Origin: Actinomyces radicidentis
GTDB lineage: Bacteria > Actinomycetota > Actinomycetes > Actinomycetales > Actinomycetaceae
Direction: 5' to 3'
DNA length: 64,000 nt
NCBI RefSeq assembly: GCF_001553565.1
Contig: NZ_CP014228.1
Coordinates: forward strand, 1,612,001-1,676,000
Positions 4,129-57,336 of the stretch are shown here, piece by piece. A program made the position numbers and the translations under genes. How positions within the stretch are numbered: the stretch's first letter is position 1; each line of letters starts with the position of its first letter. The notes beneath the pieces are model-generated. The model was not told the DNA's origin. It was given only the letters and a program-made list of their open reading frames with translations, and did no database searches.

Positions 4129-4213
4129 GACCGCGTCTCGTCCTGACGGGGGAGGAGCTGCCGGGACCGCCCGTGAGACGGTGGACCCACCCGAACCCGA
4201 GGAGCACCACCCG

Positions 4214-4753
4214 ATGAGCGCCCCTGACCCCATGACCGCCCCCAGCGCCGCCGACGCGACCGTCGCGCCCGACGCCGGCCCCTTCGACCCCGACGGCATC
4301 GCCTTCAGCCCCGTCTCGCCGCGCCTCGTCACCGCCCGGCTCCTCCTCAACGGAGGCTGGGACGCCGTCGTCATCATCGTCTTCGCCGTACTCGGCCTCC
4401 TCGTGAGCCCCTGGTTCCACATCGGCGCCGCGGTCGGCGCGGTCCTGCTCCTGTGGGAGCTCTGGCTCGTCCCGAGGCAGGTGCGCGCCATGGGCTACGC
4501 CCTCGCCGAGGACCACCTCCTGTGGCGCAAGGGCATCATGTTCCGCCGCATGAGCGTCGTCCCCTACGGCCGCATGCAGTTCGTCGACACCTCCCAGGGA
4601 CCGCTCGCCCACCGGCTCGGCATCGCCGAGGTCAAGCTCCACACGGCCGCCGCCTCCACCGACGCCACCATCAACGGCCTGCCCGTCGAGGAGGCCGAGC
4701 GGCTGCGCCGGATCCTCTCCGAGCGCGGCGAGCAGAGGATGGCCGGACTGTGA
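4214..4753 (+). CDS. Bacterial PH-domain membrane protein (YdbS-like)
   Basis: A 179-residue protein. Two membrane helices (about residues 53-90) are followed by one bacterial PH (bPH2) domain, recognised by GYALAEDHLLWRKGIMFRR and VVPYGRMQFVDTSQGPLAHR. The ATG at 4214 is preferred because upstream codons in the same frame translate only the antisense-like shadow of the DUF3180 gene. The stop overlaps the GTG of the next gene, which carries the same domain in several copies, so the two probably form one membrane complex as YdbS and YdbT do. The biological role is not established. Confidence 0.85.
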   Translation: MSAPDPMTAPSAADATVAPDAGPFDPDGIAFSPVSPRLVTARLLLNGGWDAVVIIVFAVLGLLVSPWFHIGAAVGAVLLLWELWLVPRQVRAMGYALAEDHLLWRKGIMFRRMSVVPYGRMQFVDTSQGPLAHRLGIAEVKLHTAAASTDATINGLPVEEAERLRRILSERGEQRMAGL

Positions 4754-6549: not shown

Positions 6550-6607
6550 TCCCTCCGCCGCCCGTCCCGCAGCCCTGCCCGCCCCGTCCCAGCCGCCGGC
6601 CGACTAG

Positions 6608-6718
6608 CGAGATCGGGACATCCTGACCTCGAGATCGGGACCTAGCCCCGTGCCGCGCAGCACGCCGCTCCCTGCGTGCACGATGTCCCGATCTCGGAGT
6701 GAACATGTCCCGATCTCG
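6608..6718. repeat. Four-copy 14-bp dyad repeat
   Basis: CGAGATCGGGACAT occurs at 6608-6621 and, with one change, at 6630-6643. Its reverse complement ATGTCCCGATCTCG occurs at 6683-6696 and 6705-6718. The copies within each pair are spaced exactly 22 bp start to start, two helical turns. The array fills the gap between the PH-domain gene and the DUF2520 gene. It could be a multi-site operator or a large folded RNA or terminator. Confidence 0.85.
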
Positions 6719-6737
6719 GCGTGAGAGCATCGCGCCC

Positions 6738-7661
6738 ATGAGCGACCACGCAGCCATCCCCGGTCCCGGCCGGCCCGGGCGCCTCGGCGTCGGCGTCATC
6801 TCCGCCGGCCGCGTCGGCGCCGTGCTCGGCTCCGCCCTGCGCAGCGTCGAGCACCAGCTCATCGGCGTCCACGCCGTCTCCGAGGCCTCCCGCGAGCGCG
6901 CCGAGATGCTCCTGCCCGGCGTCCCCCTCCTCGAGGTCGAGGAGATCGTCCGCCGCGCCGAGCTCGTCCTCCTCGCCGTCCCCGACGACGAGCTCGCCGG
7001 GCTCGTCACCGGCCTCGCCGAGATCGGCGCCTGGCAGATGGGGCAGATCGTCGTCCACACCTCCGGCCGCTACGGCGTCGGCGTCCTCGCCCCAGCCCAG
7101 GCCGCCGGCGCCATCCCCATCGCCCTGCACCCCGCCATGACCTTCAGCGGCTGGTCGATGGACCTGTCCCGCCTCACCGGCTGCCCCATGGCCGTCACCG
7201 CCCCGCCCACCTTCCTGCCCGTCGGCCAGGCCCTCGCCGTCGAGCTCGGCGGCGAGCCCTTCGTCCTGCCCGAGGAGGCCCGCCCCGCCTACCACGCGGC
7301 CCTCGCCCACGGCGCCAACCACCTCGTCACCCTCGTCGGCCAGGCCGTGCGCGCCCTCGAGGCCGCCGGCGTCGAGGACGGCGGAGCCACCCTGCGCCCG
7401 CTCCTCACCGCCGCCCTCGACGGAGCCCTCGATGACGGCGCCGATCTCGCCCTCACCGGCCCCGTCTCCCGCGGCGACGCCGGAACCGTGCGAAGCCACC
7501 TCACGGCCCTCGCCGGGCTCCGCGACGAGGATGGGCGCCCGCTCGCCGACGTCGTCGCCACGTACCGGGCGCTCGCCGCCGCCACCGTCGACCGCCGCGA
7601 GGCGACCGGCCGGCTCCGCGAGGACCAGGTCCGCGCCCTGCGCGAGGCCATCGGCGAGTGA
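6738..7661 (+). CDS. Rossmann-like / DUF2520 domain protein
   Basis: A 307-residue protein that begins with a dinucleotide-binding fold (GVGVISAGRVGAVLG) and a dehydrogenase-like core (LLAVPDDELAG, HTSGRYGVGVL, IALHPAMTFSG), followed by the all-helical DUF2520 C-terminal half. Such proteins regularly sit just before panC in actinobacteria. A role as an oxidoreductase near pantothenate synthesis (ketopantoate-reductase-like) has been suggested from context but is not shown. ATG 6738 is chosen over the earlier in-frame ATG at 6699 because the latter lies inside the 14-bp repeat array. Confidence 0.85.
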   Translation: MSDHAAIPGPGRPGRLGVGVISAGRVGAVLGSALRSVEHQLIGVHAVSEASRERAEMLLPGVPLLEVEEIVRRAELVLLAVPDDELAGLVTGLAEIGAWQMGQIVVHTSGRYGVGVLAPAQAAGAIPIALHPAMTFSGWSMDLSRLTGCPMAVTAPPTFLPVGQALAVELGGEPFVLPEEARPAYHAALAHGANHLVTLVGQAVRALEAAGVEDGGATLRPLLTAALDGALDDGADLALTGPVSRGDAGTVRSHLTALAGLRDEDGRPLADVVATYRALAAATVDRREATGRLREDQVRALREAIGE

Positions 7662-7678
7662 GGGCCCTTCGGCGCGAC

Positions 7679-7684
7679 TAGCCT
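7679..7684 (+). promoter_or_regulatory. -10 box of leaderless panC
   Basis: TAGCCT ends 7 bases before the GTG of panC, with no ribosome-binding site in between. It fits a leaderless transcript that starts at the GTG. Confidence 0.55.
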
Positions 7685-7691
7685 GGCGCCC

Positions 7692-8630
7692 GTGATCACC
7701 ACGCAGAACCAGCCCGTCACCCTCGCCCGCACCCGCGCCGAGCTCGCCGCCGCGCTCGACGCCGACACCGCGCCCCGCGCCGTCGTCATGACGATGGGCG
7801 CCCTCCACCAGGGCCACTTCGACCTCGTCGCAGAGGCCGCCCGCCGCGTCGGAGCCGATGGGACCGTCGTCGTCACCATCTTCGTCAACCCCCTCCAGTT
7901 CGCCGCCGGGGAGGACCTCGACGCCTACCCGCGCACCCTCGAGGCCGACGTCGACGGCCTCACCGCCACCCTCACCGGCGAGGCCCGCCACCTCGCCGTC
8001 GGCCGCCTCGTCGTCTTCGCGCCCACCCCCGAGGTCATCTACCCCGACGGCGAGCCGAGCGTCCGCCTCGACCCGGGCCCCATGGCCACCGTCCTGGAGG
8101 GCGCCACCCGACCGATCCACTTCGCCGGCGTGCTCCAGGTGGTCCTCACCCTCATGCACCTCACCCAGCCGCGGTGGGCGCTCTTCGGTCGCAAGGACGC
8201 CCAGCAGCTCGCCATCGTCTCCGCCATGGTCCGCGATCTCGCCGTCCCGGTGGAGGTCGTGCCCGTCGACATCCGCCGCGAGGAGTCGGGCCTGGCGATG
8301 AGCTCGCGCAACGCCTACCTCTCCGACGCCGAGCGGGAGCAGGCCCTCGCCCTGTCCCGCGCCCTCGAGGCCGGGCGCCAGGCCGCCGCCGCGGGCGCCG
8401 ACGCCGCCGGGGTCCGCCACGCCGCCCTCGACCTGCTCACGAGCGCACCGGGCGTCGAGGTCGACTACGTCGCCGCCGTCGACCCGGTCACCTTCGTCGA
8501 CGTCGCCGGCGCCGGCCTGGGTCTGCCCGGGGAGCGGGTCGCCGTGACGAGCGGCGAGGTCCTCCTTGCGCTCGCGGCCCGCGTCGGCTCCACCCGCCTC
8601 ATCGACAACGCGCTCATCAGCCTCGGCTGA
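7692..8630 (+). CDS. panC: Pantothenate synthetase
   Basis: Joins pantoate and beta-alanine with ATP to make pantothenate, the precursor of coenzyme A. The 312-residue protein has the HIGH-like motif [13 protein letters not shown], the FVNPLQF segment, FGRKDAQQL and the KMSKS-like MSSRNAYLS, all at usual spacing. It starts with GTG directly after a TAGCCT -10 box and lies 30 bp behind the DUF2520 gene. Its substrate beta-alanine comes from the product of panD, 212 bp downstream. Confidence 0.95.
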
Positions 8631-45529: not shown

Positions 45530-46677
45530 TGCCCGCACGCCCCACGGCAGCGACGACGCGGCCCGCGCCCCGGACGGGGGCGCGGGCCGACGCCCGTGCG
45601 CCCCGGGGCGACTCGCGCGCGCGCCGGAGCCGCCGCGGTGCCGGCGGAGCCTCCGGCGCGGGCTCCCGGCCGGCCGGCCGTCTCGCCTCCCGCGGGGCCG
45701 TCCTCGCCGCGCTCGCGGTCCTGCTCGTCCTCGCTGTCATCGCCTCCCTCGCCCTCGGCGCCCGCGAGGTCCCGCTACGCGAGGTCCTCACCTGGGCCCG
45801 CGGCGACGGCGCGAGCCTCAGCTCCACGGTCGCCGCCGTTCTCGGCGCCCGCCTCACGCGCACCGTCGTCGCCCTCGCCGCCGGCGCCGCCCTCGCCGCG
45901 TCCGGCGCGGCCATGCAGGGCATCACCCGCAACCCGTTCGCCGACCCCGGCCTCCTCGGCGTCAACGCCGGCGCCACCACCGCCGTCGTCCTCGCCACGG
46001 GCCTCCTCGGGCTCGCCACCCCCGGCGCCTACCTCGTCTCGGCCCTGCTCGGCGCCGCGATCGCCTTCGTCTTCATGTGGACGGTCGCCTCGCTCAGCCC
46101 CACCGGCGCCAGCCCCCTCACCCTCGTCCTCGCCGGCGCCGCCACCGCCGCGGTCCTGTCCGCCGTCGCCGGCGCCGTCAGCCTCGTCAAGGTCAACGAC
46201 CTCAAGTCCACCCGCCGCTGGCAGACCGGCATCGTCTCCGGACGCACCTGGGACCTCATCGTCCCCGCACTCGTCGTCATGGCCGTCGGCCTCGTCCTCG
46301 TGCTCTCCCAGGCCCGCGTCCTCGACGCCCTCGCCATGGGGGAGGACGTCGCCACGGGCCTCGGCGTCCCCGTCGTGCGAGGACGCGCCGTCGCCGCCCT
46401 CGGTGCCGTCGCGCTGTGCTCCGGCGCCACCGCGCTCGCCGGCCCGATCGGCTTCGTCGGCATCATGGCGCCCCACCTCATGCGCCTCCTCGGCGGACCG
46501 GCCCACGCCTGGACCGTCACCGCGGGCGCGCCACCCCTCGCACTACCGTGGCCGGGCGCTCGGCGCCCGGCCACGGACCTCCAGCCTTCACCTCAACCCT
46601 GCACACACATCCCCGCCCGGGCCGACGCCCGGTCGGGAGACGGCCCCGGGCCGCCAGAAGAAGGACTCGAACAATGA
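45529..46677 (+). pseudogene. FecCD siderophore permease, truncated C terminus
   Basis: From ATG 45529 the protein starts with a basic 50-residue head and follows the FecCD family closely: AALAASGAAMQGITRNPFAD, GVNAGATTAVVL, TLVLAGAATAAVLSAVAGA and PIGFVGIMAPHLMRLLGGPA. Directly after this, at about 46515, the family sequence stops and a Pro/Arg-rich tail of about 55 residues reaches the stop. The last two membrane helices, a second permease and the ATPase gene are missing. The frame is open but the transporter half is surely inactive. A hairpin lies 30 bp past the break. Confidence 0.82.
46546..46576. repeat. GC hairpin, first of two related copies
   Basis: CCGTGGCCGGGCGC and its exact complement, 14-bp stem, 3-base loop. 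It lies inside the nonsense tail of the truncated permease. A near-identical hairpin stands at 47663-47694, so the two bracket the sugar kinase gene. It may act as a terminator. Confidence 0.7.
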
Positions 46678-47621
46678 CGTACGACCTCACGACCATCGGC
46701 GAGGGCCAGATCCGCTTCACCTGCGAGCGCGGAGAGCGCCTCCAGACCGCCCGTTCCCTCCGTTTCACCGCAGCCGGCTCGGAGGCGAACGTCTCCGGCC
46801 TCCTGTCCGAGCTCGGCCGCTCCACCGCCTGGACGACGAAGCTCCCCAAGGGCGAGCTCGCGGACAAGATCGCCCTCGAGTACTCCGCCGTCGGCGTCGA
46901 CATGAGCCACGTGGTCATGACCGACCACGGCCGCGTCGCCCTCTACTTCCTCGAGCCCGGCGAGTTCCCGCTCCCCGGCAAGGTCACCTACGACCGCGAG
47001 TACACGCCCTTCCGGGACATCGTCCCCGAGGAGTTCAACTGGGACGCCCTCCTGGACACCCGCGTCGTCTTCCTCACCGGCATCACCGCCGCCCTCACCG
47101 ACAACACCGCCCGCGTCGTGCGCTACTTCGCCGACGCCGCCGCCGAGCGCGGCGTCGACATCGCCCTCGACGTCAACTTCCGCTCCCTCCTGTGGAGCGG
47201 TGAGAAGGCCCGCGAGGTCCTCGAGCCCATCGCCCGCACGGCCTCCATCCTCTTCTGCTCGCGCTCCGACGCCCGCATCGTCTTCGGGATCGACGGCGAG
47301 GGCGTCGACTCCAGCCACGCCCTCCGCGAGGAGATGGGCGTCCCCACCGTCGTGTCCACCGACGGGCGCAACGGCACCTACCTGTCCACGGCCGAGGGCG
47401 ACAAGACCTACGAGATCAGGTCCGTCCCCGTCATCGACCGCCCCGGCGCCGGCGACTCCTTCGTCGCGGGCACCCTCCACGGCTGGCTCGACGGCGACGT
47501 CGACCGCGGCATCCAGATGGGCACCAAGGTCGCCCAGTTCGCCCTCACCCACCACGGCGACCTCACCCACGTGCGGGCCGCCGAGCTCGAGGGCTCCCTC
47601 TCCTCGGACATCGTCCGCTGA
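46674..47621 (+). CDS. PfkB-family sugar kinase (KDG-kinase-like)
   Basis: A 315-residue ribokinase-fold kinase. It shows AAGSEANVSGLLSELGRST near the N terminus, DVNFRSLLWS in the middle and the catalytic PGAGDSFVAGTLHGWL near the C terminus. The overall look resembles 2-keto-3-deoxygluconate kinases. The ATG overlaps the stop of the truncated permease, and AAGGA stands 9 bases before it. An MFS transporter follows. The substrate is not certain; a sugar or sugar acid imported by that transporter is likely. Confidence 0.87.
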   Translation: MTYDLTTIGEGQIRFTCERGERLQTARSLRFTAAGSEANVSGLLSELGRSTAWTTKLPKGELADKIALEYSAVGVDMSHVVMTDHGRVALYFLEPGEFPLPGKVTYDREYTPFRDIVPEEFNWDALLDTRVVFLTGITAALTDNTARVVRYFADAAAERGVDIALDVNFRSLLWSGEKAREVLEPIARTASILFCSRSDARIVFGIDGEGVDSSHALREEMGVPTVVSTDGRNGTYLSTAEGDKTYEIRSVPVIDRPGAGDSFVAGTLHGWLDGDVDRGIQMGTKVAQFALTHHGDLTHVRAAELEGSLSSDIVR

Positions 47622-47662
47622 GCACCGGGGCGTCAGCCCCACAACGCCGCCGTCGGCGGCAG

Positions 47663-47694
47663 CCCGTGGCCGGGTGCGCGCACCCGGCCACGGG
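47663..47694. repeat. GC hairpin, second related copy
   Basis: CCCGTGGCCGGGTGC and its exact complement around GC, a 32-base perfect palindrome. It shares GTGGCCGGG(C/T)GC with the hairpin at 46546. It lies between the kinase and the MFS gene and rules out the in-frame GTG at 47666 as a start. Confidence 0.7.
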
Positions 47695-47725
47695 GTCCCA
47701 CACCCTCTTCGAGAACGGTTTAATG

Positions 47726-49135
47726 ATGAGCACCTCCACCACGGCTGCGCCCGCGGGAGCGCCGGCAGGCCGCACGGCCGCGCAGCAGATCGACAACCAC
47801 CGCCTCACCGGGCACCAGAAGTCCCTCATCACCATGGCGATCCTGGGCAACGTGTCGGAGTTCTTCGACATGTTCCTCATCGGCTTCATCGTCAACCTGC
47901 TGATCGCCGACCCCGCCTGGCACCTCACCGGCTTCCACTCCGGCGTCATCCTCGCCGGCGCGGGCCTCGGCACCGTCCTCGGCTCGATCACCTGGGGCCG
48001 CCTGGCCGACATGTTCGGGCGCAAGCACGCCTTCGTGTGGTGCATCGTCGTCCTCGTCATCTTCACCGCCGCCTCGGCCTTCACCCCGACCAACGGCTGG
48101 CTGCTCCTGGCGGTCCTGCGCACCGGCGTCGGCTTCGGCGTCGGCGGCCTCAACATCACCTCCGTGCCCTACGTCCAGGAGTTCGTGCCCGCCAAGCAGC
48201 GCGGCCTCCTGTCCGGCCTCACGAGCGTCTTCATCCCCGCCGGCATCTTCCTCGGCTCGCTCGCCACCAAGTACCTCGCCGGCCCGATCGGCTGGCGCGG
48301 CCTCGTCGCCATCGGCTGCGTCCCGATCCTCCTGCTGCTGTGGGCCCGGGTCGTGCCCGAGTCCCCGCGCTTCCTGCAGACCTCCGGTCGCGAGGAGGAC
48401 GCCCGCCGCGCCTACGCGTGGGCCATGGAGATCCCCGAGGAGCAGGTCGTTGCCCTCCCGGAGATCCCCGAGGAGACCTCCGCGTCCTACTCCGTCATCT
48501 TCCACAAGTACCCGAAGTCGCTCGTCGTCGTCGCGCTCGGCTCCTTCTGCTTCATCCTGGGCTCCTTCACCGTCCAGTCCTGGGGGCAGACGCTGCTCGG
48601 CCAGTCCTTCAAGTTCGACGCCGGCCACGTGGCGACCCTCTTCATGCTCGTCTCCCTGGCCGACCTCCTCGGCCGCCTCGGCTCGGCCTGGCTCTCCGAC
48701 CGCATCGGCCGCCGCTGGACGATGTTCAGCTTCGGTCTCATCGGCGCCGTCGGCGCGCTCATCGCCGCCTTCTCGACCCGCATGGTCGCCTCCGGCTCCG
48801 ACGTGAGCCAGGTCCACCACGCCGGCTACATCTTCTTCATCGGCATCATCATCGTCATGGCCTTCGGCGACGGCGCCTTCGGCATCCTCAACGCCTTCGG
48901 CGGCGAGCAGTTCCCGACGGAGGCCCGCTCCACCGGACTCGGCCTGGGCTACGGCATCGGCGCCATCGCCAAGATCGTCGGACCCTACTTCGTGGGCGCC
49001 CTCGTCGGTTCCGGTGAGCTGAGCGCGGAGGTCGTCTTCCTTCCGTTCCTCATCTTCGCGGTGCTGCTCCTCCTGGGCGGTATCACCTACCTCTTCGCCC
49101 ACGAGACCAAGGGCGAGTCCCTTGAGAGCATCTGA
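47726..49135 (+). CDS. MFS sugar/metabolite transporter
   Basis: A 469-residue transporter with twelve helices. Sugar-porter-type motifs are GRLADMFGRKHAF between helices 2 and 3, PESPRFLQTSGREEDARRAY before the central loop, and SDRIGRRWTMFSFG in the second half. Starts at 47723 and 47726 are adjacent ATGs with only a weak GAGAACGG upstream. It is co-directional with the PfkB kinase gene, so it probably brings in the substrate of that kinase. Proton-driven import is inferred from the family. Confidence 0.88.
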   Translation: MSTSTTAAPAGAPAGRTAAQQIDNHRLTGHQKSLITMAILGNVSEFFDMFLIGFIVNLLIADPAWHLTGFHSGVILAGAGLGTVLGSITWGRLADMFGRKHAFVWCIVVLVIFTAASAFTPTNGWLLLAVLRTGVGFGVGGLNITSVPYVQEFVPAKQRGLLSGLTSVFIPAGIFLGSLATKYLAGPIGWRGLVAIGCVPILLLLWARVVPESPRFLQTSGREEDARRAYAWAMEIPEEQVVALPEIPEETSASYSVIFHKYPKSLVVVALGSFCFILGSFTVQSWGQTLLGQSFKFDAGHVATLFMLVSLADLLGRLGSAWLSDRIGRRWTMFSFGLIGAVGALIAAFSTRMVASGSDVSQVHHAGYIFFIGIIIVMAFGDGAFGILNAFGGEQFPTEARSTGLGLGYGIGAIAKIVGPYFVGALVGSGELSAEVVFLPFLIFAVLLLLGGITYLFAHETKGESLESI

Positions 49136-49181
49136 GCGATGGTCGCGGCCCGAGCGGCCGCCCGGCGCCCTCGGACACGGT

Positions 49182-49216
49182 CCGGCCCCCGACGTCATTG
49201 CGACGTCAGGGGCCGG
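49182..49216. terminator. Terminator after MFS gene
   Basis: CCGGCCCCCGACGTC pairs with GACGTCAGGGGCCGG (one mismatch) around a 5-base loop, about 45 bp after the stop. Confidence 0.7.
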
Positions 49217-49287
49217 AATCGTTGTGCTGGGAGTCCGCGCGGCGGCGCAGCGCTGCGTCGACGGCGTCGGCACCTGTTGCACAGTGT

Positions 49288-49337
49288 CGCACCCGCTGCG
49301 CGTCCTCGCGCAGGTGCGAGGGCGCGCAGCGGGTGCG
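49288..49337. terminator. Long hairpin after araD gene
   Basis: A stem of over 20 bp with one mismatch, starting CGCACCCGCTGCGCG on the left, about 45 bp past the araD stop on the minus strand. With the previous hairpin it insulates the two convergent transcripts. No gene is seen in 49136-49382. Confidence 0.65.
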
Positions 49338-49382
49338 AGACCGGAGGAAGGGAATGTGGGTGCGCTGACGCGCGTGGCCGGC

Positions 49383-50117
49383 TCAGTGCTGGCCGTAGAC
49401 GTTCTGGTAGCGGTCGTTGAGGGAGTCGACGAGGTCCTGCGGGATGAGGTGGATCTCCCCGCCCTGCCTGGCGATGTGGACGGTGCGGGCGACCTCCTCG
49501 CACATGGCGGCGGCCTTGACCGCGCCCCGGGCGTCCTTGCCGATGGTGAAGGGACCGTGGTTGGCCATGAGGACCGCGGGGGACTTGGAGCCCTTGAGGG
49601 TCTCGACGACGCCGCGGCCGATCGAGTCGTCGCCGATGAGGGCGAAGGGGCCGACGGGGATCTCTCCGCCGAACTCGTCGCCCATCATGGTCAGGGCGCA
49701 GGGGATGGGCTCGCGACGGGCGGCCCAGGCGGTGGCGTAGGTGGAGTGCGTGTGGACGACGCCGCCGACGTCCTCGCGGTGACGGTAGACGTAGGCGTGG
49801 GCGGCGGTGTCCGAGGAGGGGGTGAGGGAGGCCGGCGTGCCGTCCTCGATCTTCTCGCCGTCGAGGGTGCACACGACCATGTTGTCGGCGCTCAGCGCGT
49901 CGTAGGAGACGCCGGAGGGCTTGATGACGAACAGGTCGGTCTTCTCCGGGCCGTCGCCGCGGTCGACGACGACGCGCTCGGAGACGCTGCCGGCGGTCCA
50001 CACGACGAGGTTCCAGCGGATGAGCTCGCCGTGGAGGGCGGCGACGCGCTCGCGGGTGTCCTGGACCGCGGCCTGCAGGGTCTCGTCGAGCTCGGCGAGG
50101 ACGATCTTCTCACTCAC
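49383..50117 (-). CDS. araD: L-ribulose-5-phosphate 4-epimerase-like (class II aldolase fold)
   Basis: A 244-residue member of the AraD/FucA family. It shows VVWTAGSVSERV, IKPSGVSYDAL, the zinc-binding VVHTHSTYATAWA, GDEFGGEIPVGPFALIG and AVLMANHGPFTIGKDA. Length and the GVVHTHS pattern fit AraD, which converts L-ribulose 5-phosphate to D-xylulose 5-phosphate. No araA or araB is nearby, so related uses remain possible. GTG 50117 follows AAGGAG. It is divergent from the second SorC gene. Confidence 0.85.
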   Translation of the reverse strand: MSEKIVLAELDETLQAAVQDTRERVAALHGELIRWNLVVWTAGSVSERVVVDRGDGPEKTDLFVIKPSGVSYDALSADNMVVCTLDGEKIEDGTPASLTPSSDTAAHAYVYRHREDVGGVVHTHSTYATAWAARREPIPCALTMMGDEFGGEIPVGPFALIGDDSIGRGVVETLKGSKSPAVLMANHGPFTIGKDARGAVKAAAMCEEVARTVHIARQGGEIHLIPQDLVDSLNDRYQNVYGQH

Positions 50118-50254: not shown

Positions 50255-51214
50255 ATGGTGGCGGCCAGAAACAGTCGCGAGGAGATCGAGCTCTTGCTGC
50301 GGGTCTCGCGCATGTATTACGAGGATGGGCGAACTCAAGCCGAGATCTCGCGCGAGATTGGGTACTCACGACCTCACATCTCAAGACTCCTGTCGCAGGC
50401 GCGCGCGATAGGAATTGTGCGGATCTCGATCTCTCATCCTTTGGATCATATTCTGGCGATTGAACGTGATCTGCGGGCAGCGCTTCCTCTAACAGGAATC
50501 CGTGTGGCGGAGGTTCCTGACTCGGACGTGCTCGGTGCAATCGGACGCTGTGCAGCGGAGCTTCTGAGTGATTGTCTGGTCGACGGCCAGGTGCTCGCTC
50601 TCGGCAACGGGCGATCGATTGCGGCAATGGCGCACCATCTTCCCTCGCTTCCGCGTCCGGGCTGTACGGTTGTACAACTTCTGGGCTCGATCGCAGGCGG
50701 CATGCCTGCGTGGGGGCGCGACGCCCCCACAATCTGTGCTGCTGTCGCTCAACGTTTAGGGGCTAGGGTTTCGCGAATGTCGATGCCGCTGATCATCGAC
50801 AACCCGGCGCTCTTGAAACCGCTTATGCGTGAGGAGCGCGTCGCGACCACTCTGGCTCTCGGCGCAAGGGCTGACATCGCGATGGTCGGAGTCGCTGGAA
50901 TGGACGCTCATGGCGCGGGCAATATCCTAGCGGATTACCTCTCGTCGGACGTGCTGAAGGCTCTTGACGATGGACACGCCATCGGCCACATCCTCGACCA
51001 TCACTACGACTGGAACGGGAACCAGGTGGTGACGCCTTTGAGCGCACGGACATTGGCGCTGCCGCTGGACGATCTCAAACGCGTGCCGCAGGTGATTGGA
51101 GTTGCTGCTGGTCCTGAGAAGGTGGAGGCAATCATCGCGGCTATTCGGGGACGGATCGTCAATACTCTTGTCACGGACTTCGAGACTGCGAACGCGATTC
51201 GAAACCGGCTTTGA
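50255..51214 (+). CDS. SorC-family regulator of the PTS-aldolase island
   Basis: A 319-residue regulator: helix-turn-helix in YYEDGRTQAEISREIGYSRP followed by HISRLLSQARAIGIVRI, then the SorC effector domain (LALGNGRSIAAMAHHLPSLP, TVVQLLGSIAGG, MVGVAGMDAHGAGNIL). SorC proteins sense phosphorylated sugars. It is divergent from araD and its 3' end meets the end of the eight-gene PTS operon. Base use is markedly less GC-rich than up to 50.1 kb, like the operon, which suggests they arrived together. Confidence 0.87.
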   Translation: MVAARNSREEIELLLRVSRMYYEDGRTQAEISREIGYSRPHISRLLSQARAIGIVRISISHPLDHILAIERDLRAALPLTGIRVAEVPDSDVLGAIGRCAAELLSDCLVDGQVLALGNGRSIAAMAHHLPSLPRPGCTVVQLLGSIAGGMPAWGRDAPTICAAVAQRLGARVSRMSMPLIIDNPALLKPLMREERVATTLALGARADIAMVGVAGMDAHGAGNILADYLSSDVLKALDDGHAIGHILDHHYDWNGNQVVTPLSARTLALPLDDLKRVPQVIGVAAGPEKVEAIIAAIRGRIVNTLVTDFETANAIRNRL

Positions 51215-51256
51215 GGGTGGGATCAGCGATGTCCGCTCCTGGCTGTCCGAGGCCTC

Positions 51257-51910
51257 TCAATCTCCTGAACGGCGCTTGTTCGACCTAGAGAAGCCCGTGA
51301 TTCGTTCGGTGAGCCCAGGGCGCTCATCGACATAGTTGGCGCGACGCAACTGGGTGTCGTGGAGGCGCGAACGTAGGCTGGGATCGAGACGACTGACCTG
51401 CTTGCCGGTCGCCTTGCGCACGTAGGGGACAACGGACGACTCGCTGCCTGCGACTTGGTCATTCGCGTCGAGGGAGATACCGAGGATCTCACCACCGCAC
51501 AGAGCCAGGTACAGATAGTCGTCGTCGAAGTGCCCGTCGACCACGTTCTTCCAGGGGTGGAACCTCGGGCCGACGTCTGGGAGATCCTGCTTGATTCCGT
51601 CGTGCATGAGCTGGAGTGTCTCTGGCTCGCCGGTCTGGCGGAAAGGATCACTTCGGGCAGCGAGCAGTCGTGAGCGCGGTGCCTCCGTGACGTGCCACAG
51701 GAACACGACGGCCCCGACAACCCAGGCTAGGTTGCGGAGCGTCCCAGGTACGACCATGAAGCCCGCTGCCACGCAGCAGAGTGTCAGAAGTACTCCCTGC
51801 AGCCCTCGCGAAGGCGTGAACACAGCGGTCCGATAGCGCGTGACTGCGCTGTGGAACCTCGGGGTGTGCGGAGTGCTGACGATGTGCTGCGTAGCAGCGG
51901 GGCGTGCCAT
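51257..51910 (-). CDS. Two-helix membrane protein, YcxB-like (tentative)
   Basis: A 217-residue protein ending the PTS operon; its ATG is 9 bases behind the dhaL stop. Two adjacent membrane helices lie at about residues 38-80 (LLTLCCVAAGFMVVPGTLRN and AWVVGAVVFLWHV). The cytosolic part has FHPWKNVVDGHFDDDYLYLA and a later Leu/Asp-rich helix, loosely like the YcxB domain of unknown role. No enzyme motif is visible. Its presence in a sugar operon is unexplained. Confidence 0.65.
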   Translation of the reverse strand: MARPAATQHIVSTPHTPRFHSAVTRYRTAVFTPSRGLQGVLLTLCCVAAGFMVVPGTLRNLAWVVGAVVFLWHVTEAPRSRLLAARSDPFRQTGEPETLQLMHDGIKQDLPDVGPRFHPWKNVVDGHFDDDYLYLALCGGEILGISLDANDQVAGSESSVVPYVRKATGKQVSRLDPSLRSRLHDTQLRRANYVDERPGLTERITGFSRSNKRRSGD

Positions 51911-51919
51911 GGACGAAAC

Positions 51920-52564
51920 CTACTCGGACTGGCGACTGTTCGCGATTCCCTCGAAGATCAGGCGTCCTACGACTGAGCCTCCGTCGAGGACTCCGATGGA
52001 GCGCGCCGCTGAGTACGCCGCACGTCCGTGGACGGCTTCCATCTCCTTGGTGGACTCGGAGCCAGCCGCGGCAGCCTCAGCGGCGGCCCCGAGGAGATCC
52101 GACTCCGCGGCCGCGTCACCTGCCGCCTGCGCGGCACCGGCGACGAGTGCATCTGCCCCTGGAACGAGCGCATCGATAATCGTCTTTTCGCCAGGCTTGG
52201 ACTCCGCCTTGTCCATGATGTTTTGGACGCCGGCCCGAAGCGCTTCAGCGGCTGCAGGGAAGTCGACCTCGTCACTCCCCTTGAGGGCCTTTGCCATTCC
52301 CATCAGGCCGAAAGTGAGTATAGTCCCGAGGGAGGACGGAGCGGCTTCGTTGAAGACCTTGCCTCCCTTCCGGAGGAGCTGTCCCAGATCGGTGTCCTCG
52401 GCTTGCGAGAAGTGAGCGGCGAGGGCGCGGAAGCCGTCGTCCATTGAGATGCCGAGGTCGCCGTCACCGTTGACCTGGTCCAGGCTGACGAGATAATCGC
52501 GGTTTGTCTCCATCAGCGCGCTGATCGATGCGGTGACGGAGATCAGAGTGTCCTTGGTGACCAT
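51920..52564 (-). CDS. dhaL: Dihydroxyacetone kinase subunit L
   Basis: A 214-residue all-helical nucleotide-binding subunit. The metal-binding aspartates stand in VNGDGDLGISMDDGF (residues 31-45), followed by FNEAAPSSLGTILTFGLMGM and a C-terminal helix with HGRAAYSAARSIGVLDGGS. It supplies the phosphate for the DhaK-bound substrate. ATG 52564 is 7 bases behind the dhaK stop. No DhaM phosphotransfer subunit is in the window, so phosphate comes either from ATP or from a PTS protein elsewhere. Confidence 0.9.
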   Translation of the reverse strand: MVTKDTLISVTASISALMETNRDYLVSLDQVNGDGDLGISMDDGFRALAAHFSQAEDTDLGQLLRKGGKVFNEAAPSSLGTILTFGLMGMAKALKGSDEVDFPAAAEALRAGVQNIMDKAESKPGEKTIIDALVPGADALVAGAAQAAGDAAAESDLLGAAAEAAAAGSESTKEMEAVHGRAAYSAARSIGVLDGGSVVGRLIFEGIANSRQSE

Positions 52565-52571
52565 GTCTGCC

Positions 52572-53579
52572 TCACTTGTTGGTGTTGGTGTAGAAGGGGG
52601 TTGAAGCCGGCGCAAGTAGAAGCTTCTTGAGCTCGTCGTCGAGCTTGAAGACGGTGATCGAGAGACCGGCCATCTCCATGGAGGTCGCGAACTCTCCGAT
52701 GTGCGGCATAACGATCGAGACTCCCTTGGCCTTGAGACGGTCGCTCACTCCGCGGTACACAATGAACTGTTCCTCAAGCGGAGTCGACCCCAGACCATTG
52801 ATCATGACAGAGACCTCGTCCCCGGCGGTCAGCGGCATGTCAGCCTCGATCGTGTCGAGGATGCGCTCCGCGATCTGGTCGGCCGTGAGCATCTTCTCCA
52901 CTGAGATTCCGGCCTCGCCATGGATGCCCATACCGATCTCGATCTCGTCGTCGGCGATGGTGAAGGTGGGTTCACCGACCTTCGGCACGATGCATGGGGA
53001 GAGTGCGACACCCATCGTACGAATGTTGGCCAAGGCCTTCTCCGTCACCGTGACTACCTCGTCGAGCGAACGGAGCTCGTCGGCTGCTGCGCCGGCGATC
53101 TTGTAGGCGTAGACGATACCTGCGACGCCTCGACGCTTGTCCGCACGTTCCGCCGGCGACGAGGCGACGTCGTCGCGGCCGAGCAGTTGGCGTGTCTCGA
53201 TATCGTCGAATTCGACGTCCTCACAAGCCATCCGGAAGTTGAAGATGTCGCCGTTGTAGTTCCCGTACAGGCACAGCACACCCGCGCCGTCGTCGCATGC
53301 ACGGATCATGTCGGCCATCTTCTCCGATGAGGGCGAGGCGAAGACCTCACCGACGGCGCAGCCGTCGATCATTCCGGAGCCGACATAGCCCAGGAAGAGA
53401 GGTAGATGGCCCGAGCCGCCGGCGGTGACGATTCCCACCTTCCCTGCCTTGCGCGGGTACTTCGACACGAGCACGCGGAAGTCGTCATTGAGGAAGTCAA
53501 CGCGATCGCCATAGGCCGCGCGGATTCCCTCCATCGTGTCCTGGACGAAGGAGTCTGCGGAGTTAAGGATTTTCTTCAT
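52572..53579 (-). CDS. dhaK: Dihydroxyacetone kinase-like subunit K
   Basis: A 335-residue DAK1-type kinase subunit. All three active-site residues of E. coli DhaK have counterparts: His58 in GGSGHLP, Asp111 in GNYNGDIFNF, and His220 in GMGIHGEAGI, the residue that binds the ketone covalently. The canonical GSGHEP is changed to GSGHLP and the next stretch is LFLGYVGSGM, so the pocket differs from standard dihydroxyacetone kinases. It may phosphorylate dihydroxyacetone or a longer ketose. It lies 23 bp behind the phosphatase gene. Confidence 0.9.
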   Translation of the reverse strand: MKKILNSADSFVQDTMEGIRAAYGDRVDFLNDDFRVLVSKYPRKAGKVGIVTAGGSGHLPLFLGYVGSGMIDGCAVGEVFASPSSEKMADMIRACDDGAGVLCLYGNYNGDIFNFRMACEDVEFDDIETRQLLGRDDVASSPAERADKRRGVAGIVYAYKIAGAAADELRSLDEVVTVTEKALANIRTMGVALSPCIVPKVGEPTFTIADDEIEIGMGIHGEAGISVEKMLTADQIAERILDTIEADMPLTAGDEVSVMINGLGSTPLEEQFIVYRGVSDRLKAKGVSIVMPHIGEFATSMEMAGLSITVFKLDDELKKLLLAPASTPFYTNTNK

Positions 53580-53602
53580 GGGGGAGCCTTTCTCGGGGCA
53601 GG

Positions 53603-54244
53603 TCAGTTCTCTCGGACGCCCCACGCCTCGCGGAGCAGCTCGGGGTGCTTCTCGAGGTGGGCGTAGTCGTTTACTCGTTCGAGCGACATCTCTCCGGTGA
53701 CGGCGTCAACGTCGAGCTCGGTGATGCCGCAGTTCTCGAATCTGCGACCGATCACCCTCCACCGTTGGGGAGGAGCTCCGAGAACATAGGTCACAACAGC
53801 TCGGATGACGACGCCGTGGGTGATGATGCCGATGCGGTCGGCCCCCGAGTTCGCGATGTGTTCGAGCTCGGGGACGACGCGCTCGATAACGTCGGAGATC
53901 GACTCACCCCCCGGATAGTGGACGTCCCTGTCGATGCGTAGCTGCGCAGCCTGGAACTCCACGAACCTGGTGTCGATCTCACTTGTGGTTAGCCCCTCCA
54001 TCTGCCCGAAGTTCAGTTCGCGCAGGGCAGGGACGATGGTGAGGGGGACGTGCAGCGAGGCGTTGATGTGTTCCGCTGTCTGGCGGGCACGGATCATGTC
54101 GCTGGCGACGAGAGAGGTGAGACTCCACGTGCTCAGCCGCTTGCCCGTGAGCCGAGCCTGCTGCACGCCCTCCTCGGATAGGCCGACGTCGACATTGCAA
54201 CGGCTGTCGCTCTGCCGTCCATGACGGATGAGATAGATGCGCAT
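53603..54244 (-). CDS. Histidine phosphatase (phosphoglycerate-mutase-like)
   Basis: A 213-residue branch-1 histidine phosphatase. The phosphorylated His is in LIRHGRQSDSR at the N terminus; VASDMIRARQTAEHINASL, ALRELNFGQMEGLT and the second His in IITHGVVIRAVV follow. This is the usual set for phosphomonoesterases such as PhoE and CobC rather than glycolytic mutases. In this operon a sugar-phosphate phosphatase role is likely. It is 16 bp behind the aldolase gene. Confidence 0.88.
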   Translation of the reverse strand: MRIYLIRHGRQSDSRCNVDVGLSEEGVQQARLTGKRLSTWSLTSLVASDMIRARQTAEHINASLHVPLTIVPALRELNFGQMEGLTTSEIDTRFVEFQAAQLRIDRDVHYPGGESISDVIERVVPELEHIANSGADRIGIITHGVVIRAVVTYVLGAPPQRWRVIGRRFENCGITELDVDAVTGEMSLERVNDYAHLEKHPELLREAWGVREN

Positions 54245-54260
54245 GTCGACATCAGCCTGG

Positions 54261-54932
54261 TCAGCGCGCGTTCGGGAACTTGATCTCGGACGGGTAGGCC
54301 CACTTCTGCAGCTCGTCCTGCTCGAAGTACTCGGGCTCCTGGCCGCCGTTAGCGGTGAGCGCGTGGTGGTAGAGTTCTGCGAGTTCCTCGATGTAGGAGG
54401 CCTTCAGGAACGCCTCGTAGATGTTCCGGTCGTCCAGGGCGACTGATCCGTGCTTCTCGAGCAGGATGCAGTCAGCCTCCGCTGCGGCTTCACGAACGAA
54501 GTCAGCGAGCTCTGGCGTACCCGGTCGGCCATAAGGCGCGACCGGAATGCGTCCCTTAGTGAGACCGAGGTTGGCGACCTCGTAGACGATTGCCGGGATC
54601 GGCTTTCGGAGCACGGCGAAGGACGTCGCATATGGCGAGTGAGTGTGCACGATGGCACGCACCTCGGGCCGGGCCTTGTAGATCTCGATGTGCATGAGCA
54701 CCTCGGACGTCGGGCGGAGGCCGGACTCGTTCTCAATCACGTTGGCGTCTAGATCCATGACGACGACGTCGCGCGGGCTCATCTGGTCACGGTCGAGGCT
54801 CGTCGGTGAGACGACGAACAGGCCCGTCTCGGTGTCCCGGATCGAGAAGTTGCCGGACTTGTGCTTGCAGAGGCCATCGTGTTGCGCGCGCTTGGCGACG
54901 GTGACAAGGTCTGCCTTGAGGGACTCGAGCAT
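54261..54932 (-). CDS. Class II aldolase (L-fuculose-1-phosphate aldolase type)
   Basis: A 223-residue zinc aldolase of the FucA/RhaD type, which cleaves ketose 1-phosphates into dihydroxyacetone phosphate and an aldehyde. Glu77, His96, His98 and His161 match the catalytic Glu and zinc ligands of FucA in residue and spacing (TSEVLMHIEIY, VHTHSPYATSFAV, EKHGSVALD). KSGNFSIRD forms the phosphate site. The exact sugar is unknown. It lies 45 bp behind the IIC gene. Confidence 0.87.
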   Translation of the reverse strand: MLESLKADLVTVAKRAQHDGLCKHKSGNFSIRDTETGLFVVSPTSLDRDQMSPRDVVVMDLDANVIENESGLRPTSEVLMHIEIYKARPEVRAIVHTHSPYATSFAVLRKPIPAIVYEVANLGLTKGRIPVAPYGRPGTPELADFVREAAAEADCILLEKHGSVALDDRNIYEAFLKASYIEELAELYHHALTANGGQEPEYFEQDELQKWAYPSEIKFPNAR

Positions 54933-54977
54933 TGTTCTTGACTCCTTATGTTGTGTGATGCAGCCGATCTGGTTCTC

Positions 54978-56351
54978 TCACGCCTCGACGTCAGCAGCCT
55001 GGGCTGCGCGCGCGGCGTTGCGCTCAGTAATGAGCTCGCGGGAGTAGAGCACGAAGCAGACGAGCCAGATGACGAAGATGATGAGCGGCATGAAGTTGCC
55101 GTCCACGATCTGTGCGAGGTGGGAGAGGGCATAGGTGAAGATCGGTGCGTCGATCGACGAGTTCGAGATCATCTGGCCCTTCTCGAGGTCAACGGCGTGC
55201 GTCGAATTCGCGAGTTGCGTCATGAAGGGGGCGAATGCCGTTCCGACCCACAGGAACACAGGCGCGAAGATCGTGCACTGGATCAGCATGCGGATGATGT
55301 TGCCCTTCGAAGCGAAGTAGGCGGCGACCGCGATGCAGACGTTGATGATTCCCGCGAACGGGAGGATCTCGTTGCCGGGGAGGAAGAAGGAGAACAGAAG
55401 GGTGACGGGGATCGTCCAGATCACGGCGAGCCAGATCTCGTTCGCCCCACCAAGGAACGGCCAGTCGAGGCCAACGAAGAGCTGGCGGTCGCTGAATCGC
55501 TTCTGCATGTACTCGGAGATTGCGTTTGAAATTGGCTCGAGCGCCTGCATGAAGTACTTTGAGATGACAGGGAAGAGCGTGAGCGCAGTCGCGGCCTGGA
55601 TTCCCAGGGTGAGCGTCTCCGCGACACCAAAGCGAGCCAGAAGACCGAAGATAATACCCAGGATGAATCCGAGGATGTGGTTCTCGGCGAAGATGCCGAC
55701 CTTGTCACGAAGGTCCGCAGCATCGAACGAGCGGTTGAGCCCCGGGATCTTGCGCAGGAGCCAGTCGATGGGGTACATCGGCGCTGCAAGGAAGATCATG
55801 CGGTGCGTGATCGTGACGCCGGGGATACCAGACATGGTCTCGACACGGTACTGGTGGTAGTCGGCTGCCTTAAGCTCGAAGACAGTCTGGACTGCGGCGA
55901 AGATGAAGGCGAGCCAGACGGAGTCGGTGATGTAGTACACGGCGACTGCTGTGAAGATCTTGCCCCACACGTTCCACAGATCCGCGTTGAAAGTCTCCGT
56001 CCACTTCAAGAGGATGAGGACCACGTTGATCCCGATCACGATCGGGAACATGAGGAAGGCGTAGGGCCAGGACCATGAGATGGTGGACATCGTGGTCCAG
56101 CCGCCGTCCGTGATTGGAAGGGAGACGCCAACGGTCTTCGACATCGCCTGTGCGGCGGGCGTGATCGCGCTTGTCATGTAGTTGATGAGCATCGTCATCC
56201 CGGAGAATGCGACGCCCAAGGTGATGCCGGCGGAGATCGCGTCCTTGATCTTCATGCGGACGAGGAGACCCGCGATGATGATAATTATCGGGACGAAGAT
56301 CGCGGCACCGAGCGAAAGCAGGAAGTTCACTCCATCCTGGAGCACGTGCAT
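54978..56351 (-). CDS. PTS transporter subunit IIC, galactitol family
   Basis: A 457-residue membrane permease of the Gat family with about twelve hydrophobic segments. LLSLGAAIFVPIIIIIAGLL at the start, DGGWTTMSTISWSWPYAFLM, and FVGLDWPFLGGANEIWL in the second half are family marks. It moves a sugar or polyol inward while IIB phosphorylates it. Members handle galactitol and pentitols; the substrate here is unknown. Codon use with many ATT, TTC and AAG is distinct from the surrounding chromosome. Confidence 0.9.
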   Translation of the reverse strand: MHVLQDGVNFLLSLGAAIFVPIIIIIAGLLVRMKIKDAISAGITLGVAFSGMTMLINYMTSAITPAAQAMSKTVGVSLPITDGGWTTMSTISWSWPYAFLMFPIVIGINVVLILLKWTETFNADLWNVWGKIFTAVAVYYITDSVWLAFIFAAVQTVFELKAADYHQYRVETMSGIPGVTITHRMIFLAAPMYPIDWLLRKIPGLNRSFDAADLRDKVGIFAENHILGFILGIIFGLLARFGVAETLTLGIQAATALTLFPVISKYFMQALEPISNAISEYMQKRFSDRQLFVGLDWPFLGGANEIWLAVIWTIPVTLLFSFFLPGNEILPFAGIINVCIAVAAYFASKGNIIRMLIQCTIFAPVFLWVGTAFAPFMTQLANSTHAVDLEKGQMISNSSIDAPIFTYALSHLAQIVDGNFMPLIIFVIWLVCFVLYSRELITERNAARAAQAADVEA

Positions 56352-56386
56352 AGTTGATCGACCTTTCTATGTGCGGCTTCAGGCGT

Positions 56387-56680
56387 TCACTTGCCGTCGT
56401 AGGCGTGGATCGCGTCGATGAGCTTCTTGAGTTCCGCGTCCTGACCCATGCCAGTGAGGAAGGCGATCCCGTTGATAGTGGGCACGCTGCGTTCCTTCTG
56501 CTCGCGCACGATGGTGATGTATGCAGCGGCGCCGGCGAGATGACGGTCGACCGACTTGAGGTCGACTGCCTCGACATCGGCGTTGACCTTCGCCTCCTTG
56601 AGAAGGCGGGTGACCTTGCTGGCGACCGTCTGTGATGTGGCGACTCCGCTTCCGCAGGCGACGATGACCTTGGCGCTCAT
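56387..56680 (-). CDS. PTS subunit IIB, galactitol family
   Basis: A 97-residue cytosolic phosphocarrier. The phosphorylated Cys9 is in VIVACGSGVATSQTVASKV, the standard GatB-type loop. It takes phosphate from the IIA protein encoded 52 bp upstream and gives it to the sugar bound by IIC, encoded 35 bp downstream. Confidence 0.92.
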   Translation of the reverse strand: MSAKVIVACGSGVATSQTVASKVTRLLKEAKVNADVEAVDLKSVDRHLAGAAAYITIVREQKERSVPTINGIAFLTGMGQDAELKKLIDAIHAYDGK

Positions 56681-56732
56681 AATGGGTCCTCCTTAAAGGG
56701 TGATGAGGCGCAGTGGGGTGGTGTGGTCTGGG

Positions 56733-57203
56733 TCAGGACTCGAGCCCCGACATGGTGATAAGCGCGTCGAAGTACTCGTTCTCTGTGCGCGCCTGGTCCA
56801 GGCGCTCCATGAAGGATGGATCCTGGAAGTTCTCGAGAAGGATCTGGAGGAGCTCTACGTGGCCGTCCTCCTTCTTGAAACCGAGCATGAAGATGAAACG
56901 CACGGGGTGGGTCTCGTCATTGTTCGCCATCTCGTGCCAGAGCACGGGCTTGGCGAGACGAGTGGAGGCGATGAATGGCTCGATGACGTGAATTGCGTCC
57001 GAGTGCGGGATGGCGATGGCCTCAGGCTGAGTAGGGAGGGCGGTCGGGTAGATCTCCTCGCGGGCCTTGATGGCGTCGAGGAAGGTGTCCTCGACGTAAC
57101 CCGATGCGCGAAGCTTTTCGACCATGCGGTTGAAGAAGTCTTCCTGGTCCTCAACGTTCCAGTCCAGCTGGATGAGGTCGCGCTTTAGCAGGTCCTTCTG
57201 CAT
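56733..57203 (-). CDS. PTS subunit IIA
   Basis: A 156-residue phosphocarrier of the fructose/mannitol/galactitol IIA type and the first gene of the island operon. The active His67 is in EAIAIPHSDAIHVIEP. The GAGGAGG ribosome site stands 6 bases before ATG 57203. General PTS proteins (EI, HPr) are not encoded in the window and must lie elsewhere. Confidence 0.92.
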   Translation of the reverse strand: MQKDLLKRDLIQLDWNVEDQEDFFNRMVEKLRASGYVEDTFLDAIKAREEIYPTALPTQPEAIAIPHSDAIHVIEPFIASTRLAKPVLWHEMANNDETHPVRFIFMLGFKKEDGHVELLQILLENFQDPSFMERLDQARTENEYFDALITMSGLES

Positions 57204-57318
57204 GTGTCCTCCTCGACGCAATACGGACCGCGGGTGCGCGTCTTCACGCAGCCGCGTGCCGGTCGGTGCCGGCGACCTCCGAAGAGTAGGTCGAGTTGGG
57301 TGGAGTCTCTAACCGTCC

Positions 57319-57336
57319 GATGTACAGATGTACATC
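57319..57336. promoter_or_regulatory. Perfect operator dyad before the PTS operon
   Basis: GATGTACA-GA-TGTACATC, two 8-bp arms around 2 bases, 116 bp upstream of the IIA start. Its symmetry and place make it the best candidate site for the SorC regulator encoded at 50255. Confidence 0.6.

Follow-up and report, generated by a model that had tools for sequence, protein, structure and literature searches.

A PTS-aldolase-DhaKL operon of Actinomyces radicidentis and a possible fructolysis-like route for a rare ketose

The chromosome of Actinomyces radicidentis carries, within a window of 64,000 nucleotides (the whole stretch of DNA that was analysed), an operon for a sugar phosphotransferase system (PTS), an aldolase, a phosphatase and the two kinase-like proteins DhaK and DhaL. 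The host genome is a single contig of 3.05 Mb, and the closest named relatives of the DhaK come from Actinomyces. A sequence-only reading had described the gene set as PTS IIA, IIB and IIC, aldolase, histidine phosphatase, DhaK, DhaL and a membrane protein, next to a SorC regulator, and the analysis of open reading frames (ORFs) and protein families confirmed it. Open frames were found for all eight operon genes between 51257 and 57203 on the minus strand. Compared loci and genomes are given by L and G numbers. The features of the operon and its immediate borders are:

56733-57203, minus strand: PTS EIIA of the PTS_EIIA_2 family (PF00359, 113.4 bits, cut-off 27), with an IPH motif in its sequence
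56387-56680, minus strand: PTS EIIB (PF02302, 38.5 bits, cut-off 23.6), with an N-terminal CGSG motif
54978-56351, minus strand: PTS EIIC of the EIIC-GAT family (PF03611, 232 bits)
54261-54932, minus strand: class II aldolase, FucA/DrdA type (PF00596, 164 bits)
53603-54244, minus strand: HisP, histidine phosphatase superfamily branch 1 (PF00300, 156.6 bits)
52572-53579, minus strand: DhaK with a GNYxGD motif, predicted to be the triose-binding subunit of a kinase (PF02733, 380.9 bits; below the TIGR02363 and PRK14479 cut-offs)
51920-52561, minus strand: DhaL with GDGDLG and APSSLGT motifs, predicted nucleotide-binding subunit (PF02734, 124.9 bits; TIGR02365, 113.8 bits, cut-off of 138.3 not reached)
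51257-51910, minus strand: orf217, a small protein judged membrane-bound from its sequence
50255-51214, plus strand: SorC/DeoR-type sugar-binding regulator (PF04198, 185.5 bits)
57319-57336, no strand: perfect 18-bp palindrome GATGTACATCTGTACATC, 133 bp upstream of the IIA start

Pfam matches back the family call of each gene but orf217 (the NCBIfam search covered every gene except IIA and IIB); for orf217, searches of Pfam and NCBIfam gave no match. The genes are co-directional and closely spaced, as first described: the intergenic gaps, in the order from IIA to orf217, are 52, 35, 45, 16, 23, 10 and 9 bp. The SorC gene adjoins the operon in convergent orientation, tail to tail. Neither a dehydrogenase, an isomerase nor a PfkB or FGGY kinase was found among the operon ORFs with Pfam and NCBIfam, which agrees with the earlier statement that dehydrogenase, isomerase and classical sugar kinase are missing. 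The operon is real and not a chance grouping, because the same gene order recurs across phyla.

The sequence-only reading had proposed a search for the gene set in other genomes, and related operons exist in Actinomycetota, Bacillota and plasmids of Enterobacterales. Their shared core consists of PTS, aldolase and DhaKL. The arrangement IIA-IIB-IIC-aldolase-DhaK-DhaL was found in Actinomyces, Dermabacter, several Bacillota, Coriobacteriia and Klebsiella plasmids, and the core is also present in two further genera of the family of the host, Actinomycetaceae. With the aldolase as protein query, 1,092 sequences matched at E ≤ 0.001, and Dermabacter, Brachybacterium, Propioniciclava, Arcanobacterium, Trueperella and Lachnospiraceae are among the best 120 of the 1,092. 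A search of genome contigs with DhaK identified 409 related loci, and the best 80 of the 409 were retained. The distribution of related IIC genes (E ≤ 1e-95) is patchy. At class level, they are present in 1 of 394 genomes (a sample of the host's class), 4 of 391 (class of G060) and 14 of 246 (class of G062); at family level, in 8 of 200 (family of the host), 4 of 299 (that of G060) and 1 of 150 (that of G059). In two Klebsiella records (L138 and L152), the operon lies on conjugative plasmids, in a fragment with ilvA, ilvY and ilvC. A 2,373-base piece of the plasmid with the aldolase, DhaK and DhaL genes is present in 6 of 5,426 E. coli genomes, and all six copies are plasmid-borne. We infer that the operon spread horizontally. 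Degraded copies (L121, L125 and L130) suggest repeated loss. Within Coriobacteriia operons, the unassigned proteins encoded at L116 9612-10202, L120 9851-10717 and L123 6298-6687 have no Pfam match above cut-off. No description of the gene set was found in the titles and abstract beginnings of the open-licence literature, which is not a proof of absence.

The aldolase had been read as FucA-type, and its residues bear this out. In 30 of the 30 operon aldolases compared (those of more than 45% identity; L082, L126, L147 and the L130 remnant were excluded), the positions that we take to be Glu73, the metal-binding His92, His94 and His155, and Tyr113 of FucA are invariant, and the presumed Gly44 position is Ser in 23 of the 30. 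An AraD-type epimerase was considered and rejected, as the operon enzyme has Glu at the presumed Glu73 position, where the neighbouring AraD-type protein (49383-50117) has Asp. Tyr113 of FucA is also named in PMC6202814. By sequence, the closest solved structures are 6btd and 6btg, which are DrdA without and with dihydroxyacetone phosphate (DHAP); DrdA yields DHAP and acetaldehyde, according to PMC6079011. Compared with the best 25 of 28 families, the window aldolase scores below every substrate-specific cut-off (PRK06833, 131.6 against 264; RU1PAldHalo, 124.8 against 300). From its family it is predicted to cleave a ketose 1-phosphate to DHAP and an aldehyde.

Substitutions and neighbours of the aldolase are informative about its relatives. 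In three Coriobacteriia loci (L123, L124 and L127), a RhaD-type aldolase replaces the FucA-type enzyme, and that of L123 passes the PRK03634 cut-off for rhamnulose-1-phosphate aldolase (275.8 against 170). L112 is also RhaD-type but is cut off where its contig ends, L082 holds both types, and L125 is a degraded copy. In L113, the region 3707-8115 holds an aldolase of 50% identity beside a kinase for methylthioribose (MTR) or 5-deoxyribose, an MtnA-type isomerase and a GAT-type IIC, and a kinase of this type is also next to the aldolase gene in L094. The RhaD-type substitutes and the L113 neighbours together indicate that relatives of the operon aldolase seem to act on ketose 1-phosphates without a second phosphate. 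Neither IIA nor IIB was found near the GAT-type IIC of L113, and this IIC may be a former PTS permease that is now a plain transporter of 5-deoxyribose or methylthioribose.

The phosphatase varies among the operons. Removal of 11 duplicates from 51 compared loci left 40 non-redundant ones: 7 with HisP, 13 with a match to a HAD phosphatase (counted if within 8.5 kb of IIC and on the same strand) and 20 with neither. Seven of these 20 were dropped because of degradation, truncation at a contig end or an incomplete core (L112, L113, L121, L125, L130, L146 and L147). The remaining 33 operons with IIC, aldolase and DhaKL, a non-random sample drawn by similarity in which close species are over-represented, comprise 7 with HisP, 13 with HAD and 13 with neither. 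Among them, matches are split in L025 (IIC and SorC) and in L128 and L142 (DhaL), and IIA was not seen in L062, at a contig start, and L082.

HisP of the window has the motifs RHG, RARQTAE, ELNFGQMEG and THG. The operon copies, by simple pattern, keep RHG and the Glu motif in 7 of 7 cases and THG in 6 of 7, and outside the window the HisP proteins share 45-54% identity with the window protein. The similarity to the CobC alpha-ribazole phosphatase model TIGR03162 amounts to 118.8 bits, below the cut-off of 162.9. Nine Actinomyces genomes lack HisP in the operon, and a search of the rest of each genome revealed no ortholog: eight have only a match of 26-34% identity, and G012, a genome only 82% complete, has none at 1e-8. 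Hungatella (L029, genome G070) has an unlinked HisP of 45% identity; its neighbours, judged by eye, have no evident link to the pathway, and it was set aside as a functional clue. On the aldolase tree, the distribution of HisP requires five changes, compared with a mean of 6.4 for shuffled data, and 59 of 500 shuffles were as low. The distribution of HAD requires three changes against a shuffled mean of 7.9, and none of 500 shuffles was as low. HisP is therefore optional, and probably accessory to the operon. A phosphatase step remains plausible in part of the operon group, since two unrelated phosphatase families recur. A phosphatase gene thus recurs, but the comparison does not support the phosphatase step of the sequence-only reading as a required one.

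That reading had given the phosphatase a central task. The PTS would place its phosphate at the far end of a ketose, HisP would remove it (in other operons this could be the part of HAD), DhaKL would phosphorylate C1, and the aldolase would cleave the resulting ketose 1-phosphate. The recurrence of two phosphatase families, with every HAD gene on the operon strand, speaks for such a relocation of phosphate, as does the position of HisP between the aldolase and DhaK genes in 7 of the 7 genomes with an operon-borne copy, with its motifs largely intact. The most complete form would be that of eight Coriobacteriia operons, which combine HAD, PTS, aldolase and two DhaKL sets. This set could supply two kinases, one for the ketose and one for the aldehyde, and DhaKL would then be a ketose 1-kinase, which we consider unlikely though worth keeping in view. 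On the other hand, 13 of 33 operons manage without HisP or HAD, and the nine Actinomyces genomes have no HisP ortholog, although an unrelated phosphatase could substitute there. The HAD genes lie near the operon but are not always tightly joined to it, and 12 of the 13 HAD-bearing operons are from one class, Coriobacteriia. The route also spends one extra phosphate, and the kinase content of non-PTS loci, described below, argues against it. Phosphate relocation is therefore a possible but not the leading explanation, with perhaps one chance in several of being correct.

The operon is a variant of known sugar catabolism and most likely serves a rare, six-carbon ketose. We tentatively favour a fructolysis-like route, to which we give somewhat less than an even chance, because the core is shared among the operons and the phosphatase is not. 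The PTS would import the ketose and phosphorylate it at C1. The FucA/DrdA-type aldolase would cleave the ketose 1-phosphate to DHAP and a three-carbon product that bears no phosphate, most likely glyceraldehyde. DhaKL would then phosphorylate the triose, converting glyceraldehyde to glyceraldehyde 3-phosphate. Two triose phosphates would enter glycolysis at a cost of one phosphoenolpyruvate and, if DhaKL uses ATP, one ATP. HisP would be an accessory phosphatase, dispensed with by most of the Actinomyces relatives examined, and SorC would control the operon by way of a sugar phosphate. No shorter reading gives each core gene a single task and also agrees with the aldolase family. In the Actinomyces genome G025, where no HisP ortholog was found, there is a single Dak1 gene, so that the core alone may suffice; G025 is the best natural sign of this, though a generic phosphatase could be at work there.

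The phosphatase-free operons would equally suit a route with a bisphosphate, which needs the shared core only, uses each core gene once and is as short as the fructolysis-like one. Here the PTS would deliver a ketose 5- or 6-phosphate, DhaKL would add a phosphate at C1, and the aldolase would form DHAP and an aldehyde phosphate. The scheme is that of the tagatose pathway, except that the kinase is of the Dak family and the aldolase of the FucA type. However, passages of PMC6079011 and PMC6202814 describe FucA, DrdA and RhaD with acceptors that carry no phosphate, and the relatives of the operon aldolase sit with ketose-1-phosphate pathways. The fit to the aldolase family is poorer than that of the fructolysis-like route, and the second DhaKL and the phosphatases are unexplained. 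We regard this route as improbable.

D-Psicose (allulose) was considered as the substrate of the fructolysis-like route and set aside as too weak to claim. FucA stereochemistry is 3R,4R; if it holds for the operon aldolase and the product is D-glyceraldehyde, D-psicose would fit. A weak hint is that the operons of L023 and L025 are preceded by a D-psicose-3-epimerase-like gene; the L025 copy scores 82.8 bits against a cut-off of 300, and the L023 copy is 92% identical to it.

DhaK and DhaL of the operon differ from well-studied homologs in their motifs. DhaK has GNYNGD where the E. coli and L. lactis structures 4lrx and 3ct4 have KNYTGD and KNYLGD. Gly in place of Lys was found in 100 of 100 DhaK matches with 57% identity or more, a count that includes redundant loci, and in 10 of 11 of 45-57% identity. 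Below 45% identity, the second DhaK sets of PTS operons carry Gly too, so Gly alone marks more than the window DhaK group. The DhaL proteins of the window group have GDGDLG and APSSLGT instead of GDxDHG and GGxSG. DhaK keeps the positions that we take to be His56, Ser80, Asp109 and His218 of E. coli DhaK. A separate canonical DhaKLM, whose DhaL has the motifs GDADHG and GGASG, is encoded elsewhere in the host genome. No EIIA-man match, as expected for DhaM, was found in the window; the host genome (G000) has three elsewhere. A second DhaKL set is present in FucA-type Coriobacteriia operons, in L111 and in the Klebsiella plasmid, and the DhaL of this set has retained GDxDHG in L111 and Coriobacteriia, whereas the motif retained in the Klebsiella plasmid is GGASG. 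The three RhaD-type operons have the second type of DhaKL only. In the Klebsiella plasmid, an HPr-family gene (L138 10681-10947) lies directly 3' of DhaL, a hint that a PTS carrier, and not ATP, might be the phosphate donor of this DhaKL.

The textbook substrate of DhaKL is dihydroxyacetone, and two routes could supply it. The PTS product could be cleaved to free dihydroxyacetone and an aldehyde phosphate, or a branched ketose 1-phosphate (e.g. dendroketose 1-phosphate) could be cleaved to DHAP and dihydroxyacetone; DhaKL would then make DHAP. E. coli FucA and RhaD condense DHAP with dihydroxyacetone, at 17% and 73% conversion, respectively, as given in PMC6202814, so that the reverse reaction is possible. 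The same paper reports FucA to be poor in this reaction, with a kcat/KM 65-fold below that for L-glyceraldehyde. The natural abundance of such sugars is unclear, and the window DhaK is not a canonical dihydroxyacetone kinase. This explanation is very improbable.

Gene neighbourhoods offer a further view of the DhaKL substrate. Among 77 clustered loci, 11 combine window-type DhaKL with an aldolase-family gene and have no PTS, and 10 of these 11 hold another kinase set. The other set is a second, divergent DhaKL in seven loci (L052, L054, L059, L075, L076, L078 and L088), an FGGY kinase in L047, a 3-oxo-tetronate kinase in L055 and an MTR kinase in L094. L079 is the only one of the 11 without another recognised kinase. 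Because the aldolase substrate could come from another kinase in 10 of the 11, window-type DhaKL probably acts on the aldolase product, a triose, although this is not certain. The role of ketose C1 kinase that the sequence-only reading gave to DhaKL is accordingly doubtful, though 7 of the 10 other sets are DhaK-like proteins of unsure activity. Kinases of D-apulose and D-erythrulose were considered as well and set aside. In 19 of the 77 loci, window-type DhaKL is near a cluster whose tested member is an ATC hydrolase, and in 10 of the 77 near one whose tested member is a serine dehydratase alpha.

Several points weigh against the fructolysis-like route. The DhaK-like proteins of the seven divergent pairs lack the presumed His56 and the presumed catalytic His218 positions, so their activity is unsure; as judged from these residues, they must work differently or are not kinase subunits. 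The aldolase-family gene of L055 resembles 3-oxo-tetronate 4-phosphate decarboxylase (161 bits, cut-off 250). In 24 of the 77 loci, window-type DhaKL is paired with transporters judged by eye to be Liv-like and with none of the aldolase clusters (examples are L033, L034, L039, L044 and L085, in the range L031-L100), a setting in which a triose substrate is not obvious. A triose substrate is not assured, because the DhaKL motifs diverge and the scores are below the curated dihydroxyacetone kinase cut-offs. Phosphorylation of C1 by the PTS is an assumption. The second DhaKL of Coriobacteriia, L111 and the Klebsiella plasmid has no explanation in this route, and HisP has no clear job, yet HisP or HAD accompanies 20 of the 33 operons.

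The IIC protein scores 285.5 bits with the galactitol IIC model TIGR00827, below its cut-off of 542 bits. A homolog of orf217 (37% identity) is at the operon end in L028, and an ORF of L027 that is weakly YcxB-like, below cut-off, is a possible counterpart. Of the 12 non-degraded Actinomycetaceae copies, the window included, all 12 have a SorC homolog no further than 8.5 kb from IIC. In L025, SorC is broken into pieces. The palindrome GATGTACATCTGTACATC is a candidate SorC operator. L021 carries a different palindrome at the identical -133 position. Several further operon copies have differing exact dyads or none upstream, and an exact 6-bp dyad is missing in 4 of 13 upstream regions scanned (L128, L129, L143 and L144). 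An ORF of 675-681 amino acids between IIC and aldolase in L024, L027 and L030 was considered as a missing enzyme and rejected; it reads as a PTS regulator of the PRD/BglG type. L029 has two ORFs at this place, and the Klebsiella plasmid gene at the same position, annotated as a BglG antiterminator, is 32% identical to the PRD/BglG-type ORF.

Neighbouring genes outside the operon, which the sequence-only reading had not mentioned, are:

49383-50117, minus strand: a second gene of the class II aldolase family, of the AraD-type L-ribulose-5-phosphate 4-epimerase kind (PRK06557, 354 bits, cut-off 251)
47726-49135, plus strand: MFS gene
about 46671-47621 (start not fixed), plus strand: PfkB-type kinase gene

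The PfkB-type kinase and MFS genes face the AraD-type gene in the window (46671-50117). The kinase is nearest to KDG kinase models, far below their cut-offs. Four other members of the genus (L014, L017, L018 and L019) also have the pair of AraD-type and MFS genes, yet nothing closely similar to the operon aldolase. The GC content is 0.58-0.65 over 50.0-57.5 kb (500-base steps), compared with 0.717 for the whole window, which suggests horizontal arrival of the operon. The GC contrast between operon and flanks is smaller in eight other Actinomyces copies.

These results point to an unassigned sugar pathway in bacteria of the mouth, gut and rumen, as judged by their names, and on plasmids of Klebsiella and E. 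coli. They also point to a large DhaKL group that shares a consistent motif change and occurs in gene neighbourhoods of several types. If a single enzyme were assigned, many loci now labelled dihydroxyacetone kinase would become easier to interpret.

The predicted route resembles known systems in part. According to PMC9573865, fructolysis proceeds through ketohexokinase, aldolase B and triokinase. The sequence of steps predicted here is that of animal fructolysis: phosphorylation at C1, aldol cleavage to DHAP and glyceraldehyde, and phosphorylation of the triose. Triokinase is a Dak-family enzyme. In contrast to animals, the window has a PTS in place of the ketokinase, a metal-dependent FucA-type aldolase in place of aldolase B, and split DhaK and DhaL with divergent motifs, to which a phosphatase is sometimes added. 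The galactitol and tagatose PTS operons (gat/tag) share EIIA, EIIB and a GAT-family EIIC with the window operon, which differs from them by having neither galactitol-1-phosphate dehydrogenase, tagatose-bisphosphate aldolase nor GatY/GatZ. The DHAP shunt (drdAIK, for 5-deoxyribose and MTR salvage) has an aldolase of the same family, and L113 links this aldolase and IIC with MTR kinase and MtnA; the window operon is without MTR kinase and MtnA but has IIA, IIB and DhaKL. Compared with DhaKLM, the window proteins have the Dak1 and Dak2 domains and the conserved DhaK positions. They differ by the lack of DhaM and by the changes from KNYxGD to GNYxGD, from GDxDHG to GDGDLG and from GGxSG to APSSLGT.

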